Origin: a virus
DNA length: 39,275 bases
Virus record (IMG/VR): IMGVR_UViG_3300020220_000137
Span: 1 to 39,275 of that record
Reading direction: 5' to 3' (one strand)
The translations under genes were made by a program, and so were the position numbers. The notes under the pieces are model-generated. The model was not told the DNA's origin and made no database searches. It was given only the letters and a program-made list of their open reading frames with translations. Positions 28,323 to 37,485 of this stretch are shown here, piece after piece (position 1 is the first letter of the stretch; each line of letters starts with the position of its first letter).

Positions 28323-28410
28323 GGAGAGGTGGCCGAGTGGTTTATGGCAGCAGTCTTGAAAACTGCCGATGTGAAAGCATCCGTTGGTTCGAATCCTACC
28401 CTCTCCGCCA
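28323..28410 (+). tRNA. tRNA-Ser (UGA)
   Basis: Class II tRNA: acceptor GGAGAGG/CCTCTCC, anticodon stem-loop GCAGT-CTTGAAA-ACTGC with anticodon TGA, variable arm with GATG/CATC stem, TTCGAAT loop, discriminator G and an encoded CCA (28408-28410). One T-T mismatch in the T stem. It decodes UCA-type serine codons. Confidence 0.93.
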
Positions 28411-28484
28411 CGGAATGTAGCTCAGCTTGGTAGAGCACTCGCTTTGGGAGCGAGAAGTCGCAGGTTCGAATCCTGTCATTCCGA
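28411..28484 (+). tRNA. tRNA-Pro (UGG)
   Basis: Begins directly after the CCA of tRNA-Ser. Acceptor CGGAATG/CATTCCG, with the C1-G72 pair usual for proline tRNAs; anticodon stem CTCGC/GCGAG around TTTGGGA (anticodon TGG); TTCGAAT loop; discriminator A. The CCA end is not encoded. 74 nt. Confidence 0.93.
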
Positions 28485-28488
28485 CCTT

Positions 28489-28581
28489 GGGAGTGTAGCT
28501 CAATTGGCAGAGCGGAAAGCTTATACCTTTCGTATACGGCAGATTACCGTGCGGTTGGGGGTTCGAGTCCCTCCACTCCTA
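28489..28581 (+). tRNA. Probable tRNA-Ile (UAU) with an unusually long variable region
   Basis: Acceptor GGGAGTG/CACTCCT (G1-U72 wobble), class I D arm (GCTC...GAGC), perfect anticodon stem GAAAG/CTTTC around CTTATAC (anticodon TAT), T arm GGGGG-TTCGAGT-CCCTC, discriminator A. Between anticodon and T arms lie 25 nt instead of 4-5, containing ACGG-CAGATTA-CCGT. A UAU tRNA should be class I isoleucine, so identity is uncertain; folding of the extra arm needs checking. Confidence 0.6.
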
Positions 28582-28582
28582 C

Positions 28583-28851: not shown

Positions 28852-28923
28852 ATGAGATCAACTAATAGGGGATGCTGTGGGGCAGGATGTCCTGATTGCC
28901 CCTTCCGACCTAAAAATAAATAA
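28852..28923 (+). CDS. 23-aa cysteine-rich miniprotein (CCxxxCxxC)
   Basis: A 24-codon ORF encoding RGCCGAGCPDCPFRP at its core. The four clustered cysteines recall the short C-terminal motif CCGxGCxxCPY of small bacterial proteins I associate with DUF5522, usually part of a longer protein. A late-type AATAAATA overlaps its stop. The local spacing (16 bp after the previous stop, 20 bp before the next gene) allows a real gene. Metal binding is a reasonable inference. Below normal gene-calling limits. Confidence 0.6.
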   Translation: MRSTNRGCCGAGCPDCPFRPKNK

Positions 28924-28925
28924 CC
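28915..28925 (+). promoter_or_regulatory. Late-type box (AATAAATA + ACC) before the 28944 gene
   Basis: AATAAATA (28915-28922) followed by ACC, overlapping the stop of the miniprotein and 21 bp before the next ATG. A weaker related string, CTAAATAACCC, lies at 28828-28838 upstream of the miniprotein. Confidence 0.45.
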
Positions 28926-28943
28926 TTACATCTGGAAAATCTT

Positions 28944-29270
28944 ATGCTCTCTACACAGTATCGTTTACGCTTGGAAGAAATCTGTAGAAAGATTAGTTTA
29001 CATGAAAGCGTAGGGTTAGAAGATATGATTTGGGCAGAGAAGCTAGGTAAAGCAAACCGCACTGCAGGCACCATGCTACGTCAAGCAAGACGTAAAGCAG
29101 AGAATCCAGACATGCAGGAAGGTGATATGGATGATTTTCTAAACCAATTGGACATTGGTGGAACTGGGCATGAGCGTTTTGGTCATCGTGGGTTTAGAAA
29201 TATTGACGATATGACTGACTGGTGGACTGAAGGCAGAGATAAACCTGATGACTGGAGACAAAGAGATTAG
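28944..29270 (+). CDS. 108-aa hypothetical protein
   Basis: A soluble protein with a helical basic N-terminal half (YRLRLEEICRKISL; MLRQARRKAENPD) and an acidic, Trp- and Gly-rich C-terminal half (MDDFLNQLDIGGTGHERFGH; DDMTDWWTEGRD). It ends 30 bp before the VWA gene, so the two may be co-transcribed. No domain recognised. Confidence 0.7.
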   Translation: MLSTQYRLRLEEICRKISLHESVGLEDMIWAEKLGKANRTAGTMLRQARRKAENPDMQEGDMDDFLNQLDIGGTGHERFGHRGFRNIDDMTDWWTEGRDKPDDWRQRD

Positions 29271-29282
29271 TGGCACAACCTG

Positions 29283-29312
29283 TTGACAGCGAGGGGTAGT
29301 ATGCCCTATACT
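29283..29312 (+). promoter_or_regulatory. Possible sigma-70 promoter overlapping the VWA gene start
   Basis: TTGACA (29283-29288), 18-bp spacer, TATACT (29307-29312). Transcription would begin near 29319, after the ATG at 29301, and would instead favour the in-frame ATG at 29337. The site is sequence-perfect at -35 but conflicts with the longer reading frame. Confidence 0.45.
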
Positions 29313-31430
29313 AGTAAGGTATTCAGGAACACCGAGATGCTTGTCAACACCGACGTAAAAGGAACACTTGCTAAATTACTGGCAACTGAAAACCTTCATG
29401 TTGAGCACCGTAAGATTTCTACGGCATACTTCGATGTTCACAAACGTGTGCTTGCCCTTCCAATTTGGAAAGATGTTACAGGTGACGTGTACGACCTTCT
29501 AGTGGGTCATGAAGTGGGTCATGCCCTCTATACCCCTGAAGATGATTATAAGACCGCTCCAAAGGATTATATCAACGTTCTAGAGGATGCTAGAATTGAA
29601 CGTAAGATGAAAGTTACTTACCCAGGACTTCGTAAATCTTTTTATCGCGGATACCAAGAACTAAACAATAAGAATTTCTTTGGAACCAACGATAAAGATA
29701 TTTCTAAGTATAACCTACTGGATAGGATCAATCTTCATTTCAAAGTTGGCACAGTCGATTGTATTTCAATTCCCTTTACAGAAGAAGAATTGCAATGGGT
29801 TGATCGCACAGCCAATACTGTGACTTTTGAAGACGTAGTAACACTTGCAGAAGAACTTTATGAATACTGCAAATCTACAGTAGTAGAAGAGATTACTCCT
29901 CCGCCACCACCTCCTTCAAATAACGGTGGAAATACACATTCTGATGAATATGATCCACAACCATCTGATGGAGAATATGATGATGAAGAAGAATGGGAGA
30001 CTAAAGATGGGTTTACCAATGAAAAAACTGAAACCTCTGCATCAGATATCCAGGGTGGAGATACAAGTCAAGATATTCAAAACTCTCTGACACAACAATC
30101 ACTTATTGAAAATCAAGAAACTCTTCTTGATGATAGTGCTCGTGAGTGGGTATATTTGACAATCCCTACTATAGATATGGATCATCATTTGGTTCCTTGG
30201 AGAAAAGTTGCAAATGATCTTCGCAGCTTCTATAACGACACGTATGTTACGTGCTCAAATGTTGAAGGTAGTTTCCGTAGATATGCTCTCTATAAGCGTG
30301 GGGCACAGAAATCTGTAAATTATCTTGTCAAACAATTTGAGATGAAGAAGTCTGCAGATCAATACGCTCGTTCTAGCATTGCAAAAACTGGAGTTCTAGA
30401 TACTAACAAACTTCATAACTATCAAATCACTGAAGATATTTTCAAAAAAATTACAGTGGTTCCTGACGGTAAAAATCATGGACTGATCTTCCAATTGGAC
30501 TGGTCTGGATCTATGCAGGGAGTTATTATGGATACTCTCAAACAACTCTATAACCTAATCTGGTTCTGTCAAAAAGTTTCCATTCCATTTGAAGTTTATG
30601 CATTTCAAAGTGGACTTCGTGACTCTCACGAATCACCTCAGGAAAAGGATTTGCATACCATTTATATTGGTAAAGACTTCAGGTTGATTCAGTTATTCTC
30701 CTCCGAAATGAATACTCGTGTTCTTGATCAACAAATGAAACATGTTTGGTCTCAGTGTTGGGGTATGGCGTCTCATGGTTATAGTCATGCATACGTTACA
30801 AGATATATGCTTGGTGGAACTCCTTTGGTTCAAGCAATCATTGCTACTAGGCAACTAGTTGCAAATTTCATCAAACGTGAAAAAGTGCAAAAGGTGAATG
30901 TTGTTTGTCTGACTGATGGTGAAGCAAATCCAATGAGTTATATTCTCCAGGATCGTACTGGTAACTATAGATGTTCAATGCTTTGTCATAACACAGCTAA
31001 AGTTCATATTCTCATTGACCCTATTTCTAAACGGCAACGTCGTATTTCACCTTACCCCAATCAAACTACAACTGAAATTGTTTCTTTCTACCGTAGTATT
31101 ACTGATTACAACTGGATCGGATTCCGTCTCTGCTCAAAGGGTGAGATGCAGCAAAATGTTACAGCGATCAATTCTGATAGTGCTTATGTCAAAAAGGCAA
31201 TCGACTGTTGGAATAAAGAACGTTATGTTGAACTTCGTAACGGTAGTGGATTTGATGTTCAATATATGATGCCAAACAAGTATATTGGTGAAGGAACTGA
31301 AGAACTCACTGTTTCTCAGAAAGGTGAGATTGCAACCAAAACTGAACTACATCGGGCATTCAAAAAGCATATGGGATCTAAAATGGCAAACAAAACTTTT
31401 CTCAATAAATTTGTGGAGATGATTGCATGA
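29301..31430 (+). CDS. HExxH metallopeptidase-like protein with VWA domain (CobT-like)
   Basis: A 709-residue protein. Residues 70-74 are HEVGH with a downstream NVLEDARIERK (about 92-102) that could supply the third zinc ligand; CobT and related VWA proteins carry a comparable EDAR/EQAR element. A Pro-rich and acidic linker (about 199-245) leads to a von Willebrand A domain with an intact MIDAS motif DWSGSM (400-405) and a later LTDGEAN. The start at 29301 has GAGGGG upstream; TTG 29283 is rejected and 29337 is possible. Two genes later is a CobS/MoxR AAA+ ATPase, the usual partner of VWA proteins. A remodelling or metal-insertion machine is inferred. Confidence 0.82.
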   Translation: MPYTSKVFRNTEMLVNTDVKGTLAKLLATENLHVEHRKISTAYFDVHKRVLALPIWKDVTGDVYDLLVGHEVGHALYTPEDDYKTAPKDYINVLEDARIERKMKVTYPGLRKSFYRGYQELNNKNFFGTNDKDISKYNLLDRINLHFKVGTVDCISIPFTEEELQWVDRTANTVTFEDVVTLAEELYEYCKSTVVEEITPPPPPPSNNGGNTHSDEYDPQPSDGEYDDEEEWETKDGFTNEKTETSASDIQGGDTSQDIQNSLTQQSLIENQETLLDDSAREWVYLTIPTIDMDHHLVPWRKVANDLRSFYNDTYVTCSNVEGSFRRYALYKRGAQKSVNYLVKQFEMKKSADQYARSSIAKTGVLDTNKLHNYQITEDIFKKITVVPDGKNHGLIFQLDWSGSMQGVIMDTLKQLYNLIWFCQKVSIPFEVYAFQSGLRDSHESPQEKDLHTIYIGKDFRLIQLFSSEMNTRVLDQQMKHVWSQCWGMASHGYSHAYVTRYMLGGTPLVQAIIATRQLVANFIKREKVQKVNVVCLTDGEANPMSYILQDRTGNYRCSMLCHNTAKVHILIDPISKRQRRISPYPNQTTTEIVSFYRSITDYNWIGFRLCSKGEMQQNVTAINSDSAYVKKAIDCWNKERYVELRNGSGFDVQYMMPNKYIGEGTEELTVSQKGEIATKTELHRAFKKHMGSKMANKTFLNKFVEMIA

Positions 31431-31576
31431 AGTGGGAAGTTACTTACAAAATAAAAGCAACTGGTTCTAAGTACCATAAAAAAATTGTTGAAGCAACTAC
31501 ACAATATGAAGCAAAATCCCTTGCCCAATGTGAGATGCCTGATGCTATACTGTGTGGAAATCCCCGACCCCTATGA
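31427..31576 (+). CDS. 49-aa hypothetical protein
   Basis: Starts in an ATGA overlap with the VWA gene and ends in another with the next gene (ATG at 31573). The product begins MKWEVTYKIKATGSKYHKK and continues VEATTQYEAKSLAQCEMPDA, a short beta-hairpin-plus-helix pattern common to many tiny phage proteins. Two cysteines. Tight coupling on both sides argues that it is translated. Confidence 0.6.
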   Translation: MKWEVTYKIKATGSKYHKKIVEATTQYEAKSLAQCEMPDAILCGNPRPL

Positions 31577-32082
31577 ATATTTTTGTCACTAATAAGTATC
31601 CTGCAGAATCTGCGATTGTTTTGCCAGACAAGCATATCGTAAAGATGCCACTCGAATGTTGTCAAATGTTATCTATTGTAGCATCCAAGTGGTATCACAA
31701 CTATGGACCTCTACCAAAACTAGATGGCAAACCTTATGCAACTGAAAAAGGTGCATTTAGAAATCATCCCTGTACTCAATGGGCTGCAAAGTCTGTACAC
31801 AATGCATACTGGTTGATCAAACATGGAATGAATCTATGTGATGAATATGCAGTACGTTACAACAAAATACACTCGTGTTATAATACTTTGCTTTCAGCAT
31901 ATTATCTTTTCCCCAAAGGAAAGGTTACAAAAGTAACACCATTTGTACGTGCAATGCCAGATATATATAAATTTGACGACAGCATAGATACCTATAGTGC
32001 TTACAAAATATACATTGCATCAAAACCCTGGGTTGCTAGTAATTATATCAAACTGCCTCAACGCAAACCAGAGTGGGTTTGA
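31573..32082 (+). CDS. 169-aa conserved phage protein of unknown function
   Basis: Start at ATG 31573; the GTG at 31552 is not favoured. Family-like elements: MNIFVTNKYPAESA, LPDKHIVKMPLECCQML, AFRNHPCTQWAAKS, CDEYAVRYNKIHSC and TPFVRAMPDIYK. Conserved His, Cys, Lys and Trp residues in these elements suggest an enzyme. Some relatives are, to my recollection, annotated as pyrimidine-dimer glycosylase-like, but it does not resemble T4 DenV in sequence, so I leave the function open. Confidence 0.7.
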   Translation: MNIFVTNKYPAESAIVLPDKHIVKMPLECCQMLSIVASKWYHNYGPLPKLDGKPYATEKGAFRNHPCTQWAAKSVHNAYWLIKHGMNLCDEYAVRYNKIHSCYNTLLSAYYLFPKGKVTKVTPFVRAMPDIYKFDDSIDTYSAYKIYIASKPWVASNYIKLPQRKPEWV

Positions 32083-32110
32083 TGGTCAGTTAGCCAACTG
32101 GACTTGACTC

Positions 32111-32139
32111 TTGCCATTTACGATTCCTAGTGCTATAAT
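32111..32139 (+). promoter_or_regulatory. Sigma-70 promoter with extended -10 for the AAA+ gene
   Basis: -35 TTGCCA (32111-32116), 17-bp spacer, -10 TATAAT (32134-32139) preceded by TGC (extended -10). Transcription would start near 32146, 20 bp before the ATG at 32166. Confidence 0.85.
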
Positions 32140-32165
32140 AACAAGGTACACAAAGAGGACACACG

Positions 32166-33251
32166 ATGCCTAAACCTAGCGTAAGCACCGAGCAACTGGT
32201 TCAGACTTTGACCGATAGCTTTGGTAAAACAGTAAATGCTAAACAGGTGCAAACAGTTGCTGATCAACTTGGCATCACTTATATTACTGCGTCTAGAAAA
32301 CTTGATCAGTTCAAGGAAGGTCGTGGTAAATGGAATCTTACCACTCAAGAAGTACGGCAACAACTTGAAACAATAATTTCATCATTTGTTCCATCATCTG
32401 ATAGTAACTTTGTTCCTTTCGGTAACTTCAGTGACATCAAAAAAATTATTCGCAGTAAACAGTTCTATCCAATTTTTATTACTGGACTATCTGGAAATGG
32501 AAAAACTGTTGGTGTTGAACAAGCATGTGCTCAACTACAACGTGATTTGATTCGTGTAAACATTACGATTGAGACTGATGAAGATGACCTTATTGGCGGT
32601 TTCCGCCTTGTTGATGGTGCCACTGTTTGGCACAATGGTCCAGTTATTGAAGCCCTCGAACGAGGGGCGGTCTTGTTACTTGACGAGATTGACCTTGCCT
32701 CCAACAAAATCCTTTGTCTACAATCCGTGCTAGAAGGTAAAGGAGTCTTCTTGAAGAAGATCGGTCGTTATGTTCAACCTGCGCCTGGATTCACAGTAGT
32801 TGCCACTGCTAACACCAAAGGTAAAGGTTCTGACGATGGACGCTTCATCGGCACTAACGTGTTGAACGAAGCATTCCTTGAGAGGTTCCCAATCACACTT
32901 GAGCAGGACTATCCTACTGCTAATATCGAAACTAAAATTCTTACCAACTATGGTTGCGATACTGAGTTTGCTGATAATCTAGTGAAGTGGGCAGGCGTTA
33001 TCCGCAAGACTTTCTTTGATGGTGGTGTTGATGAAGTTATTAGCACTCGTCGTCTTGTGCATATTGTTGAAGCGTACAATATCTTTGGTGATCGACTCAA
33101 AGCAATTCAAGTTTGCGTGAATCGATTTGATGAAGATACTAAGCAATCCTTTGTCGAACTCTACACCAAGGTTGATTCTGGTGAAGATCCCGATGATGAC
33201 GAATCTCCAGAAGAGATGGTGCGGCGTCATGCTATGGAATCGATCTCTTGA
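32166..33251 (+). CDS. cobS: CobS/MoxR-type AAA+ ATPase
   Basis: A 361-residue AAA+ protein of the MoxR/CobS branch. The N-terminal region (1-75) reads as helix-turn-helix-like (VADQLGITYITASRKLDQFK). Walker A is GLSGNGKT (107-114), Walker B LLLDEID (170-176), sensor 1 ATANT (213-217), and Arg240 in LERF fits the arginine finger. In bacteria CobS works with CobT in cobaltochelatase, while MoxR ATPases work with VWA proteins. The gene is near-universal in cyanomyoviruses, where it is called cobS. The VWA/HExxH partner lies just upstream; no CobN-like subunit is in this window. Confidence 0.88.
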   Translation: MPKPSVSTEQLVQTLTDSFGKTVNAKQVQTVADQLGITYITASRKLDQFKEGRGKWNLTTQEVRQQLETIISSFVPSSDSNFVPFGNFSDIKKIIRSKQFYPIFITGLSGNGKTVGVEQACAQLQRDLIRVNITIETDEDDLIGGFRLVDGATVWHNGPVIEALERGAVLLLDEIDLASNKILCLQSVLEGKGVFLKKIGRYVQPAPGFTVVATANTKGKGSDDGRFIGTNVLNEAFLERFPITLEQDYPTANIETKILTNYGCDTEFADNLVKWAGVIRKTFFDGGVDEVISTRRLVHIVEAYNIFGDRLKAIQVCVNRFDEDTKQSFVELYTKVDSGEDPDDDESPEEMVRRHAMESIS

Positions 33252-33276
33252 CATATCAAACTGAAATCTCTATAAT
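33248..33276 (+). promoter_or_regulatory. Full-consensus sigma-70 promoter for the DUF3310/gp45 block
   Basis: TTGACA (33248-33253, overlapping the cobS stop), exactly 17 bp, TATAAT (33271-33276). Both hexamers are perfect. It would fire early and drive the 95-aa gene, the sliding clamp and probably the replication genes after them. Confidence 0.9.
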
Positions 33277-33300
33277 AGAAGAACAACTCTATCTTTCATT

Positions 33301-33588
33301 ATGAACTTGAAGTACAACGAAGACGTAATTCTTGACGAATTACGTCAATACATTATGAACACTTACACCCAACACTATTCTGTTGGCGATGATAAGATTC
33401 AAACTCTAGATTTGATTGAGGCATGTGGTGACGGCGAAGCTTTTTGCCGTAGTAATATCTTGAAGTATGCTTCACGATATGATAAAAAAGGTAGCGCCCG
33501 CATGGACATTATGAAAGTGCTACATTATGCAGTTCTTCTGCTAAACTTCAATGACAAAAATGCCACCCGTGACAATTACAACCAATGA
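33301..33588 (+). CDS. DUF3310-like small protein
   Basis: A 95-residue protein with the pattern of phage DUF3310 proteins: TLDLIEACGDGEAFCRSN, then ILKYASRYDKKG, then MDIMKVLHYAVLLLNF. The family's helical bundle has been compared with nucleotide-metabolism proteins, but its activity is not settled. First gene after a consensus promoter, overlapping gp45 by 4 nt. Confidence 0.75.
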   Translation: MNLKYNEDVILDELRQYIMNTYTQHYSVGDDKIQTLDLIEACGDGEAFCRSNILKYASRYDKKGSARMDIMKVLHYAVLLLNFNDKNATRDNYNQ

Positions 33589-34241
33589 CAGTATTGACTA
33601 CTACCACACATAAAATCCTCAAGAACTTTGCTTCGATCAATAACTCTATTGTGATCAAACCTGGAAGCACTATTGGCACATTGAGTGTGAATAAAAACAT
33701 TCTTGCTGTTGCAGATGTAGAAGAAAAATTTGAAAAGCAAATTTCAATCTACGATCTTAGTCAGTTCCTGCATGGATTCTCATTCTTCAATGTTCCTGAG
33801 GTTGTGACTGATAATGAAAGTTATGTAACTGTAACTGAGCATGGAAACGATACAAAAAAAGTGCGTTTCTATTATGCAGATCCTGATATTATCGTACAAC
33901 CCCCAGATAAAACGATTGTACTTCCTTCCGTAGACGTGTCTTTCACCATCTCTGAAAGTAATCTGACAGAGTTGCGTAGGGCAGCGTATGTATTTGGTCT
34001 TCCTGATATTTGTGTGTATGGTGATAAAAAAATGATCACTATCTGCACAACTGATAAGAAGAACGATACCTCACATACCTATACCTTTGAACTTGGACCT
34101 ACAACTAAAGAGTTTTGCTACTGCCTCAAAGTTGAAAATCTTAGAATTCTAAATCAAGATTATAAGGTTAGCATCAGCAATTCGAATGTAGCATACTTTG
34201 ATGGTGGCAATGTCCGTTATTGGATCGCTCTAGAACCATGA
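33585..34241 (+). CDS. 45: Sliding clamp gp45
   Basis: A 218-residue trimeric clamp (T4: 228 aa) that tethers the DNA polymerase and also activates late promoters through gp55. Typical segments: LKNFASINNSIVIKPGS, VNKNILAVADVEEKFEK, SQFLHGFSFFNVPEV and the end NVAYFDGGNVRYWIALEP. Coupled by ATGA to both neighbours. The loader subunits gp44 and gp62 lie 1.1 to 3 kb downstream, separated by accessory genes. Confidence 0.95.
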   Translation: MTVLTTTTHKILKNFASINNSIVIKPGSTIGTLSVNKNILAVADVEEKFEKQISIYDLSQFLHGFSFFNVPEVVTDNESYVTVTEHGNDTKKVRFYYADPDIIVQPPDKTIVLPSVDVSFTISESNLTELRRAAYVFGLPDICVYGDKKMITICTTDKKNDTSHTYTFELGPTTKEFCYCLKVENLRILNQDYKVSISNSNVAYFDGGNVRYWIALEP

Positions 34242-34789
34242 ATAACTTTGAATTCTATGGATATGATTTCATACCAGGAATTCTAACTCCTAAAGATGCT
34301 GCAAATCTTCACCAAGATTTACAGCAACAAGAGTTCGATAAAGAACCACCAGAGTACGATCCTGGTAGAGGTCTAGTCAAGATGGTTTACAAACCAAAAT
34401 GTGCTGAAGATATATTCGATCAAGTACATCATTTACTAGAAACGTACCTGAGTACTGCTCTATATCCTACCTACTGGTTTTGTACTCAATATTACAACAA
34501 GTCTTACATGGCAGCACATAAAGATCGTGGGGCATGTGAGGTATCCATAAGCATGAATATCTCACAAGATGGTTTACCATGGGACTTGTGTTTACGTGAT
34601 AAAACTGGTAGAATTATTCGTCGCAAAACAAATCCTGGCGACGGGGTTCTATATGCTGGTACAGAAGTAACACATTGGAGAACTCCATATCAAGGGCGAA
34701 TCTACACTCAACTATTCCTTCATTATGTCAAAAAAAATGGAAAATACTCAGACTTCAAATACGACGAGCTCAAGTCCTCCCCTAACTAG
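34238..34789 (+). CDS. Second 2OG-Fe(II) oxygenase
   Basis: A 183-residue dioxygenase-like protein. Iron ligands His94 and Asp96 (AAHKDRGACE) and His146 (EVTHWRTP); Arg154 fits the 2-oxoglutarate site; TYWFCTQYYNKSYM precedes the first ligand as usual. The start at 34238 overlaps the gp45 stop. Its 3' end is overlapped for 65 nt by the next gene. Substrate unknown; placement inside the replication operon suggests a target linked to DNA metabolism, which is inference. Confidence 0.85.
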   Translation: MNNFEFYGYDFIPGILTPKDAANLHQDLQQQEFDKEPPEYDPGRGLVKMVYKPKCAEDIFDQVHHLLETYLSTALYPTYWFCTQYYNKSYMAAHKDRGACEVSISMNISQDGLPWDLCLRDKTGRIIRRKTNPGDGVLYAGTEVTHWRTPYQGRIYTQLFLHYVKKNGKYSDFKYDELKSSPN

Positions 34790-35327
34790 ACCCATTGTAC
34801 AGGGAGGTGTTCTTCAAACTAGTCGTGAATGTGGTACTTGTAAAGAATGTTGTGGAGGATGGTTGTGGGGCGAAGCGCATGGCATCCCATTCTTTCCCAA
34901 TCACCCATGTCATTATCTAGATCCTAATCCTGGTCGCTGTGGTGGATGTACTATTTACGAAGATCGTCCTGCAATATGTAGAGATTTTCAGTGCCTTTGG
35001 CTTCAAGATTTACAAATGCCTGGATGGATGAAACCTGAATTCTCTAAAGTTATTATGTACCAACGTACATATGAAGATGTTGAAGGTGAGGTCCATGAAC
35101 CTGGTTGGAGCATCACCTGGGTCTCTATGGTAGAATGTGGTGAAACTGTCGATCCTACAGTGTTGAATTGGGTTATTACCCAGGCACGAACACAAGAATT
35201 CAATTTGCATTACCAAGTAAAGAAGACTGATTACTATATGGGTAGTCCAGTATTCCAAGACTTTGCACGTACTTACGGTCTGCAAAGTAAAACGACTGTT
35301 GTTGTACATGAGGAAGAACATGCATGA
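34725..35327 (+). CDS. YkgJ-type zinc/iron-chelating cysteine-cluster protein
   Basis: A 200-residue protein with a dense cysteine set: Cys36, 39, 42, 43 (ECGTCKECCGG), Cys62, Cys72 and 75 (RCGGCTIYEDRP), Cys85 and Cys90 (ICRDFQC). This matches the YkgJ/CxxCxxCC family, thought to bind zinc or an Fe-S cluster. It starts 65 nt inside the oxygenase gene (ATG 34725 or 34737), and its first ~22 residues are Ser/Thr/Pro-rich, as overprinted sequence often is. It overlaps gp44 by 8 nt. Possible redox or metal partner of the oxygenase. Confidence 0.8.
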   Translation: MSKKMENTQTSNTTSSSPPLTRPIVQGGVLQTSRECGTCKECCGGWLWGEAHGIPFFPNHPCHYLDPNPGRCGGCTIYEDRPAICRDFQCLWLQDLQMPGWMKPEFSKVIMYQRTYEDVEGEVHEPGWSITWVSMVECGETVDPTVLNWVITQARTQEFNLHYQVKKTDYYMGSPVFQDFARTYGLQSKTTVVVHEEEHA

Positions 35328-36261
35328 TTTTCTTTGGGTTGAAAAATATCGTCCACAGTCAGTTGAAGATTGTATCCTACCTGAAGAAATCAAATCTATC
35401 TTTACTGGATTCTTGAAGCAGGGAGAGATACCTAATCTTCTTCTAGCTGGAACTGCTGGTGTTGGTAAGACTACTATTGCTAAGGCACTTTGCCAAGAAC
35501 TTGATGTAGACTACATGGTCATCAACGGATCTGATGAGGGTCGTTTTCTAGAAACTGTTAGGAATCAAGCAAAGGCATTCGCATCAACCGTCTCATTGAC
35601 CTCTAGCAGTCGCCACAAGGTGCTTATCATCGATGAGGCAGATAACACTACTCATGATGTTCAACTCCTTCTGAGGGCATCTATCGAGGAGTTTCAGCGT
35701 AACTGTCGATTTATCTTTACCTGTAACTACAAAAACAAAATTATTGATCCTCTTCATTCTCGTACTACAGTCGTTGATTTCAATGTAACTGGAAAACAGA
35801 AGGTTGATATTGCACAGCAATTTTTACTACGCTGTTGTGACATCCTTTCGCTTGAGCATGTCGAGTATGAACGTAAGGTTGTCGCTGAACTTATTATGAA
35901 GTTCTTTCCAGACTTCAGGCGTGTGCTCAATGAGTTACAAAGATATTCATCTACAGGTAAAATTGATACTGGAATCATTGCAGTATGCGGAGATGAAAGT
36001 TATGCTGCCCTCACAGATGCTTTGAAAGGTAAAAACTTTACTCAGGTGAAGAAGTGGGTTGACCAAAATATTGATAACTCACCTACCTTGATTATGCGAG
36101 GTATTTACGAGCGACTATATACAATGCTTGATAAAAAAAGTATTGCTGCCGCAGTGCTAATTATTGCTGAGTATCAGTATAAGTCTGCATTTGTTGCTGA
36201 CCAGGAAGTCAATCTTCTTGCGTTTCTTACTCAAATTATGTTAGAGTGTGAATTCTTATGA
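35320..36261 (+). CDS. 44: Clamp loader large subunit gp44
   Basis: A 313-residue AAA+ ATPase (T4: 319 aa) that opens gp45 with gp62. WVEKYRPQSVEDCILP matches the EQKYRPSTIDECILP start of T4 gp44. Walker A is GTAGVGKT (44-51), Walker B VLIIDEAD (101-108); LHSRTTVVDF corresponds to the SRC motif region. Start at 35320 chosen; ATG 35308 would add only four residues. Overlaps the methylase gene by 4 nt. Confidence 0.95.
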   Translation: MHDFLWVEKYRPQSVEDCILPEEIKSIFTGFLKQGEIPNLLLAGTAGVGKTTIAKALCQELDVDYMVINGSDEGRFLETVRNQAKAFASTVSLTSSSRHKVLIIDEADNTTHDVQLLLRASIEEFQRNCRFIFTCNYKNKIIDPLHSRTTVVDFNVTGKQKVDIAQQFLLRCCDILSLEHVEYERKVVAELIMKFFPDFRRVLNELQRYSSTGKIDTGIIAVCGDESYAALTDALKGKNFTQVKKWVDQNIDNSPTLIMRGIYERLYTMLDKKSIAAAVLIIAEYQYKSAFVADQEVNLLAFLTQIMLECEFL

Positions 36262-37157
36262 ACCTAAAAACACCCCTCAGATATCCTGGAGGTAAATCTC
36301 GTGCTACCGTAAAACTAGCACAGTTCCTTCCAGATATGGAAAAGATTACTTACTATAGAGAACCATTCCTTGGAGGTGGATCTGTTGCACTTTACATGAC
36401 ACAGAGGTATCCACATCTACAAGTATGGGTAAACGATCTATATTTACCCCTATGTGTTTTTTGGACGGTCCTTCGTGATAATTCAAAGGATCTTCATCGT
36501 ATTCTAAAGGAGTACAAAACTCTACATGATACTCCAGAATCTGCCAGAGAACTTTTCAATCAGATGAAAGTTGCTATAGATAATCCTAAGTTAGGTGAGT
36601 TGGATATAGCTGTAGCATTTTATGTAATCAACAAGTGTAGTTTTTCTGGACTTACTGAAAGTTCCTCATTCAGTGCTCAAGCATCTAATTCAAATTTTAG
36701 TATGCGTGGAATTGATAACATACCAGAATATTCTAAAATAATTCAAAACTGGAAGATTACAAATTATAGTTATACTCGGGTAATGGGTAATGGTCAAGAC
36801 ATTCTAATTTATCTGGACCCACCATATGAAATCAAAGACAAGTTGTATGGCAAGTCTGGCAACATGCACTCAGGATTCAATCATGACAAATTTGCAGGTA
36901 TCTGCCAAGAACATGTAGAAGCAACTAAGATGCTGGTATCATATAACTCAAGTCAATTGATTCGGGAACGATTTGCTGGCAAATGGTCTCCCTATGAATA
37001 TGACCACACATATACTATGAGATCTGTTGGAGACTACATGGCAGATCAAAAAAATCGTAAAGAACTTGCTCTTATAAATTATGACATCAGACCAGAACTA
37101 CCAACTAAAGGATTATCTAAAAACAATAAATCAAACAAAACAAAATCTGATGCGTGA
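36258..37157 (+). CDS. D12-class DNA adenine-N6 methyltransferase (Dam-like)
   Basis: A 299-residue SAM-dependent methylase. The D12-class N-terminus RYPGGKSRA (8-16), motif I FLGGGS (37-42) and catalytic DPPY (187-190) are present. The target site cannot be read from sequence. No restriction enzyme gene is adjacent, so it probably protects phage DNA or alters regulation. It sits between 44 and 62, which are adjacent in T4, and its Lys/Asn/Ser-rich last 25 codons overlap gp62 in another frame. Confidence 0.88.
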   Translation: MNLKTPLRYPGGKSRATVKLAQFLPDMEKITYYREPFLGGGSVALYMTQRYPHLQVWVNDLYLPLCVFWTVLRDNSKDLHRILKEYKTLHDTPESARELFNQMKVAIDNPKLGELDIAVAFYVINKCSFSGLTESSSFSAQASNSNFSMRGIDNIPEYSKIIQNWKITNYSYTRVMGNGQDILIYLDPPYEIKDKLYGKSGNMHSGFNHDKFAGICQEHVEATKMLVSYNSSQLIRERFAGKWSPYEYDHTYTMRSVGDYMADQKNRKELALINYDIRPELPTKGLSKNNKSNKTKSDA

Positions 37158-37485
37158 GGGAGATCCTCTTTGGCAAAAGAAGTATCCAGCATTTATTATC
37201 AACAAGTGTTTATCATTTCATATTGATACTGTCATGTATGCAAATGAAATGAACCAACATAATTCCATCGACAATCAACTGCAATATGATTTTTATATAA
37301 ATATTGTGAGACCAAGGGCAAGATTTGCACCTTGGGGTAAGAAGGAAAAGGTGAGCGATCTAGATTTCGTCAAGCAATATTATGGTTATAACAACCAAAA
37401 AGCATTAGACGCCCTTCGCATTTTGACTTCTACCCAACTTGAGTTTATTCGGTCAAAATTGAATACGGGTGGTAAAAATGGATGA
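37081..37485 (+). CDS. 62: Clamp loader small subunit gp62
   Basis: A 134-residue gp62 homologue, shorter than T4 gp62 (187 aa), as usual in cyanophages. The core YPAFIINKCLSFHIDTV, ANEMN, LQYDFYINIVRPRARFAPW and YYGYNNQKALDALRIL is characteristic. I keep the upstream start 37081 because YQLKDYLKTINQTKQNLM looks like the conserved N-terminal helix of marine gp62 proteins; ATG 37150 would delete it. The cost is a 77-nt overlap with the methylase gene. Overlaps regA by 8 nt. Confidence 0.85.
   Translation: MTSDQNYQLKDYLKTINQTKQNLMREGDPLWQKKYPAFIINKCLSFHIDTVMYANEMNQHNSIDNQLQYDFYINIVRPRARFAPWGKKEKVSDLDFVKQYYGYNNQKALDALRILTSTQLEFIRSKLNTGGKNG

Follow-up and report, generated by a model that had tools for sequence, protein, structure and literature searches.

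Does the cobS gene of T4-like marine phages serve cobalamin synthesis, or is it one half of another machine? The gene is counted among the cyanophage core genes and serves as a community marker, and a cobalamin role is commonly assumed for it (PMC3037559, PMC9983427). We addressed this question in a 39,275-nucleotide stretch of viral DNA, IMG/VR record IMGVR_UViG_3300020220_000137 (here called the window), which is part of a T4-like marine phage genome. In the window the cyanophage 'cobS' encodes a 361-aa AAA+ ATPase (32166..33251, + strand) and lies downstream of a gene for a 709-aa protein (29301..31430, + strand) with a zinc-metallopeptidase-like (zincin) N-terminal domain and a C-terminal von Willebrand factor A (VWA) domain. 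This AAA+/VWA/zincin architecture is very probably correct. We favour the reading that the pair forms a remodelling protease, powered by ATP and connected with phage DNA metabolism, and not a cobalt chelatase, and give this whole chain of claims a probability of roughly 50%.

In the translated window the open reading frames and the motifs DWSGSM, HEVGH and NVLEDARIERK lie where the original prediction, made from the sequence, had placed them. The 709-aa protein starts at the ATG at 29301 (its longest open reading frame begins at a TTG at 29283) and contains HEVGH at residues 70–74, NVLEDARIER and a full metal-ion-dependent adhesion site (MIDAS). We found that H70, E71, H74, N92, E95, D96 and R98, as well as the MIDAS residues D400, S402, S404, T507 and D539, are identical in 192/192 aligned sequences, a set that contains the window protein and near-copies of it. 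When the N-terminal domains are thinned at 85% identity, 77 sequences are left, the most distant 40% identical to the window protein, and the seven N-terminal residues are the same in 77/77. Among the 191 of 208 VWA proteins long enough to count as full length, HExxH plus a later ED.R or EN.R occurs in all 191 and DxSGSM in 189. Because the N-terminal and MIDAS residues are identical across 192/192 sequences, these motifs are not due to chance, and the protease-like zinc site and the MIDAS both appear intact, as had been claimed. The 709-aa protein is assigned to PHROG 459 ('peptidase', E = 3.5e-272); cyanophage annotation likewise calls the family 'peptidase' (T4-GC 146 in P-SSM2). A Pfam search with the 709-aa protein gave no match at E up to 1, including PF06213 and PF11775, and the CobT model TIGR01651 of NCBIfam does not match it. 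PDB sequence searches with the 709-aa profile and the N-terminal profile gave nothing credible, and a Pfam search with the 77 N-terminal domains returned scattered sub-threshold matches only, zincin families among them.

The full-length AlphaFold2 model of this protein is fair (predicted local distance difference test score, pLDDT, 72.6; predicted template modelling score, pTM, 0.63), and the N-terminal 200 residues modelled alone reach a pLDDT of 87.7 and a pTM of 0.82. The N-terminal domain (residues 1–200, 29301..29900, + strand) is delimited by model, structural comparison and invariant residues. Its model has three strands ahead of a helix at 61–77 with HEVGH and a helix at 88–106 with N92, E95, D96 and R98, which we take to be the gluzincin layout. 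In the predicted fold the HExxH thus sits on one helix and the downstream Glu on a second, as in gluzincins. The 483 chains compared with this domain were Foldseek's own best candidates. Zinc metallopeptidases or zincin-like proteins fill the top 19 rows (Z = 7.2–4.7), including ZMPSTE24, ArdC, selecase, jannalysin, abylysin, BlaR1, IrrE/PprI, a putative Zn-dependent peptidase and Wss1. Foldseek ranks selecase best (E = 0.12, probability 0.97). Minimal gluzincins and zincin-like proteins (selecase, ZMPSTE24, ArdC, IrrE/PprI and Wss1) are the best structural matches of the domain and have no PDB sequence match to it.

An acidic, low-confidence linker (approximately residues 199–260, 29895..30080, + strand; pLDDT <50 over 199–256) leads to a long-helix region and the C-terminal VWA domain (approximately residues 279–709, 30135..31427, + strand), which are defined by structural match and conservation. 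The VWA part aligns with NorD from NorQD complexes at VIA-align Z scores of 16.3 (9qh6_G) to 12.6 and with the MIDAS domains of Midasin (8ql1_A, Z = 15.5) and Rea1 (Z = 14.2); generic VWA domains score below these three (Z ≤12.5). For the whole 709-aa model the best Foldseek match is NorD 9qhe_G (E = 1.5e-4). The best structural matches of the VWA domain are VWA domains of AAA+ partners (NorD, Midasin), in keeping with the partnership originally supposed. CobT is not among the fold matches listed, which is no evidence against kinship with CobT. A predicted beta insertion at residues 546–582 could be a candidate finger for the AAA+ pore. The NorD finger enters the NorQ pore according to passages of PMC13036017, and part of PMC9976466 suggests that a VWA finger in the AAA+ pore is general for MoxR/VWA pairs.

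The 361-aa ATPase matches AAA_5 (E = 9.5e-17) and CbbQ_C (E = 2.4e-6) in Pfam and falls in PHROG 249, 'porphyrin biosynthesis' (E = 4.5e-138). Its motifs are Walker A GLSGNGKT, Walker B LLLDEID, N216, R240 and R295/R296, and the Walker A lysine, the Walker B DE and the four later positions N216, R240 and R295/R296 are kept in 37/37 ATPases. It misses the CobS cut-off of TIGR01650 (73.9 bits vs 558.55). The top score in a PDB sequence search is Midasin (E = 5.2e-49 for the whole chain, over four matched stretches), and the best single-stretch match is CobS (E = 6.3e-22), for which entries such as 9ujv are deposited. The ATPase N-terminus has a stretch of about 60 residues resembling a helix-turn-helix, with all such matches below cut-off; N-termini of ATPases from some SSU5-type relatives are Ros/MucR- or zinc-finger-like, also below cut-offs, and other relatives show nothing. 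From these sub-threshold matches the ATPase N-termini look DNA-binding-like.

The two genes occur together. Searches by tblastn of 50,697 phage records (limits 1e-5 for the 709-aa protein and 1e-10 for the ATPase) found the 709-aa protein in 463 records and the ATPase in 517. Record counts for the two genes are equal for Synechococcus (365), Cyanophage (61) and Prochlorococcus (24), and from these equal counts the record sets are probably the same. We fetched 209 loci by similarity from IMG/VR and a genome collection, a method that biases them toward the window's own family; two of these (L135 and L161) come from a single contig. With a profile, the VWA protein is detected in 208 of the 209 (it is absent from L245). 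In 182 of the 208 the ATPase gene follows the VWA gene on the same strand at a distance of no more than 4 kb, and in four it is adjacent otherwise (two touching or overlapping downstream, two upstream). Of the other 22 loci, 21 end within 2 kb downstream with no ATPase shown, and the last, L158, shows none over 4988 bp downstream. The ATPase therefore stands beside the VWA gene in 186/187 informative loci, and the linkage is not unique to the window genome. The proposed pairing of an AAA+ ATPase with a VWA protein is borne out, with an AAA_5/CbbQ_C-type ATPase whose active site is kept in 37/37 and a VWA partner whose MIDAS is kept in 192/192. The placement of the 709-aa protein two genes upstream holds for the window and not in general, the gap between the pair ranging from 27 to 1380 bases (from 70 of the 79 first loci, those with the ATPase found).

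A scan of the genome collection for cellular relatives gave nine loci, all of them probably phage contigs: eight come from metagenome-assembled genomes (MAGs) or bins, and the ninth from the assembly of a Nonlabens isolate. Within the cyanobacterial family 1/101 genomes matches, namely the MAG that supplied L085. The Nonlabens locus, L087, has a VWA relative and the ATPase on a 188-kb contig of the Nonlabens xiamenensis 1Q3 assembly; it is possibly a co-sequenced or carried phage genome and would widen the host range of the lineage. IMG/VR yielded two relatives of the BUCTxx99 phage protein and none of the Ochrobactrum phage protein.

Two small genes separate the pair in the window, encoding a 49-aa protein of PHROG 16595 (31427..31576, + strand; phrog_16595 1.1e-18) and a 169-aa protein within a 176-aa open reading frame (31573..32082, + strand). 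The suggestion that these are substrates or adaptors is not supported: a relative of the 49-aa protein lies between the pair in 4/182 loci and one of the 169-aa protein in 23/182, and the latter is a pyrimidine-dimer-glycosylase relative (PF03013, E = 5.9e-15). Because they lie between the pair in so few loci, we do not judge them conserved parts of the machine. The PHROGs label for the 169-aa family is 'DNA binding protein', unlike its PF03013 match.

How the pair relates to cobaltochelatase is less direct. Comparison of the window family profile with that of 29 bacterial CobTs gave one weak local match (probability 1.2%, P = 0.046; 1.4%, P = 0.038 in a second comparison), which begins at E71 and aligns EDAR with the CobT EQAR, and homology by direct profile comparison was rejected as not significant. 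Six phage CobTs (SSU5, Cyrano, RHEph10, B1VFA, nickie and BUCTxx99) match the window family by hhalign over its N-terminal domain (E = 2.1e-10, 179 columns) and in its full-length alignment (E = 3.7e-12, 116 columns); against bacterial CobT they reach E = 2.9e-44 across 577 columns. Because the phage CobTs match both sides, we regard the window VWA protein as a homologue of CobT over the N-terminal domain, via these intermediates. The SSU5 protein passes PF06213 (2.1e-37) and PF11775 (2.5e-112), and its HEVAH at 77–81 falls within the PF06213 match. In the alignment of phage with bacterial CobTs, HEVAH stands opposite A-Y-A-L-R, anchored by a common R-G-F-x-D, and EDVFIER opposite EQARVEA. The parallel between EDAR here and EQAR of CobT, noted in the original prediction, is real, as the phage intermediates show. 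The expected match to CobT exists through them, for the N-terminal domain and the MIDAS VWA, and is missing in direct comparison and with the CobT models.

HExxH is present in 5/7 phage CobTs read (SSU5, Cyrano, RHEph10, B1VFA and ICP2; the seven were chosen from 70 records) and absent from the 31 bacterial CobT loci read, 29 of which are informative, two readings being without the N-terminal domain. TIGR01651 matched 89/115 genomes, and one of the 31 CobT loci came from a separate scan. Since phage intermediates such as the SSU5 protein match it and keep HExxH, a decayed zincin is the best reading of the CobT N-terminal domain. On a tree of 49 proteins the HExxH label has to change three times, a number that three losses would fit; with long branches, unsettled bootstrap and no true root, it does not settle the direction. 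In the nickie and BUCTxx99 loci (L249 and L082) SEISK and REVST replace HExxH and the AAA+ neighbour is kept, and these proteins are natural 'dead' versions for comparison.

The surroundings of the pair point to DNA metabolism. Of 118 loci with 3 kb or more upstream, 113 have the recombination gene gp46 on that side, and of 86 loci with 4.5 kb or more downstream, 79 have gp45 or gp44. Outside the window's family, all seven phages read have DNA ligase, DNA polymerase, primase, helicase or recombinase genes as neighbours, and replication genes adjoin the pair in Ochrobactrum phage OC and two Pelagibacter phages.

What the analysis shows is a pair of genes that stay together, zinc and MIDAS sites that do not vary, a set of predicted folds, and homology with CobT via intermediates. 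Complex formation, proteolysis and the target are inferred, as follows. The two genes would encode one ATP-driven machine, in which the 361-aa protein, judged by its family, would assemble into an AAA+ hexamer of the CobS/NorQ/Midasin branch. The 709-aa protein would dock its VWA domain on the ring, where the MIDAS metal site would hold the target, and the N-terminal zincin domain would cut the target, or part of it, while the ring twists or unfolds it. Because the pair lies within replication gene clusters of unrelated phages, the target would most likely be a phage DNA-metabolism protein or a host protein on DNA. Cobaltochelatase CobT would be a relative whose protease site decayed. A more specific version, which we put forward only tentatively and consider rather doubtful, places this AAA+-driven zinc protease at the replication fork, where it would clear or remodel proteins with the help of DNA-binding-like ATPase N-termini; the most frequent 'vitamin B12 gene' of marine T4-like phages would then be no B12 gene, and CobT would be a relative with a dead protease. 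Wss1/SPRTN with p97 is alike in spirit.

Several points weigh against the favoured reading. For the zincin fold, which is compared here at the level of the overall fold of a model, the scores are no more than moderate (Z up to 7.2; Foldseek E of 0.12 at best), and the direct profile match of the window family to bacterial CobT is not significant. The replication context of the family reflects common descent and is one observation rather than 113, and the seven outside phages were hand-picked from 70 records. The zinc could be structural or for binding only, and the two of seven phage CobTs without HExxH (nickie and BUCTxx99) indicate that proteolysis is not essential in every such machine.

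If the phage pair were instead a CobS/CobT-like cobaltochelatase helper, it would act with host CobN to raise the supply of (pseudo)cobalamin, and passages of PMC8651126 propose just such a hijack of host CobN and call cyanophage cobT usually misannotated as peptidase. A place for the helper exists, since in the 61 genomes sampled from the family of a Synechococcus MAG CobN is over the curated cut-off in 49 and CobT is found in none (any CobN match occurs in 59/61, many of the weaker ones being about 1340 aa and judged ChlH paralogues), and the VWA proteins are CobT relatives via intermediates. We nevertheless find this role improbable. One cyanobacterial CobN query matches 2 of the 50,697 phage records, neither of them a cyanophage, which for this query agrees with the earlier statement that the phage has no CobN. 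One of the two, from Pseudomonas phage Y13 (OQ572414.1), is unannotated and may include sequence from a host. In the window's family the zinc-protease site does not vary, whereas it is absent from the 29 bacterial CobTs whose N-terminal domain was read, and pairs with HExxH are also carried by phages that bear the names of Escherichia, Salmonella, Vibrio cholerae and Pelagibacter. These four hosts are not known to make B12 through CobN. Because no CobT model matched, bacterial CobT is without the zinc site and pairs occur in phages of hosts not known to have CobN, metal insertion by the pair is unlikely; of the remodelling or metal-insertion device first envisaged, what stands is the AAA+/VWA pair with a protease-like zinc site. 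Pelagibacter is said, in part of PMC4303638, to bypass or scavenge cobalamin, and a passage of PMC9983427 (2023) states the role of cyanophage cobS in cobalamin synthesis as unknown.

The pair might also serve virion assembly or maturation, as a chaperone joined to a protease that processes structural proteins. Passages of PMC7824862 propose a virion role for the same architecture in jumbo phage group 2.2 and cite a MoxR-vWA pair without peptidase as needed for the tails of the Acidianus two-tailed virus. In the phages read, however, the pair adjoins replication and recombination genes and not structural ones. T4-like phages also have their own prohead protease, which counts against a virion role. 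The AAA/vWA pair of halovirus Hardycor1 is placed in a replication/accessory module in part of PMC7911831. We consider a virion role unlikely. A protease for host take-over or counter-defence, in which the machine would dismantle a host protein complex, would suit a core gene of a large lytic lineage, and the predicted N-terminal fold has ArdC, an antirestriction protein, and IrrE/PprI among its matches. PADLOC, whose library covers defence rather than counter-defence, has no match for either protein, and an architecture retained by phages whose hosts differ so widely speaks for a target that is internal to the phage or universal; this explanation, too, is a poor prospect. Least probable, in our judgement, is a zinc site without proteolysis, the metal serving structure or delivery in a machine that only remodels. 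CobT and the nickie and BUCTxx99 proteins do persist without HExxH, and NorQD-type machines, as far as the available passages describe them, remodel without a described protease, but the catalytic E71 is as invariant as both histidines (192/192) and structural zinc alone would not need it.

The pair resembles several known systems. CobS/CobT (TIGR01650, TIGR01651, PF06213, PF11775) has, like the window, an AAA_5/CbbQ_C-type ATPase beside a long protein, and CobT and the window protein share an N-terminal domain, an acidic linker and a C-terminal VWA domain with MIDAS, whereas the window VWA protein fails the CobT models, the ATPase is under the CobS cut-off and none of the bacterial CobTs read carries HExxH. 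SSU5-type phage CobTs (PHROG 1576 type) resemble the window pair in having a VWA domain, an N-terminal domain and an AAA+ gene next door. HEVAH or HEVGH followed by VED/LED...IER occurs in 4/6 of those aligned, the other two having lost the zinc site, and the SSU5-type VWA passes PF11775 while the window VWA does not. NorQ/NorD likewise joins a CbbQ-branch AAA+ protein to a VWA partner, the best structural match of the window VWA; in the passages available its N-terminal domain is not described as a protease, and the system inserts iron into nitric oxide reductase. Midasin/Rea1, the top PDB sequence match of the ATPase, with a MIDAS domain at Z = 15.5 to the window VWA, differs in being one giant eukaryotic protein instead of two phage genes. 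It acts on ribosome precursors.

For jumbo phage group 2.2, passages of PMC7824862 describe the same architecture and gene pairing, MoxR next to a vWA protein that has a metallopeptidase at its N-terminus, and we set it beside the window pair by that description. Those passages assign the pair to group 2.2, call P-SSM2 prototypical of group 2.1 in another context, and do not tie the pair to cyanophages or CobT. The cyanophage pair as cobST and the MoxR-vWA-metallopeptidase pair of jumbo phages are both already published. In the open-licence literature we found no paper joining the two or calling the CobT N-terminal domain a zincin, and none on CobT or cobaltochelatase with metallopeptidase or HExxH. 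The labels 'peptidase' and cobT would both be partly right, while PMC8651126 treats 'peptidase' as an error.

In the window, with some of the gp numbers taken from the P-SSM2 annotation, the order of genes is the late sigma factor gp55, gp47, gp46, three tRNAs, small genes, the 709-aa protein, the two small genes and the AAA+ gene, followed by a DUF3310 protein, the sliding clamp gp45, two further genes and the clamp loader gp44, and then by a DNA methylase, the small clamp-loader subunit and a RegA-like repressor. The tRNA row at 28323–28582 reads Ser(TGA), Pro(TGG), Ile(TAT). The protein at 34226–34789 matches PHROGs named 'ferrochelatase' (phrog_2954, 3531); 2OG-Fe(II) oxygenases are annotated near this position in P-SSM2 and HTVC008M, and the PHROG label may be wrong. 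The late-promoter core ATAAATA occurs 15 times against 10.5 expected, a count equalled in 11/100 shuffles, and does not occur in 28922–37297. With a count near the shuffled level and none in that interval, it says nothing about the timing of expression.

If the favoured reading is true, the cobalamin interpretation would be wrong for a gene pair that is abundant in ocean viruses, and the N-terminal domain of CobT would be a dead zincin.

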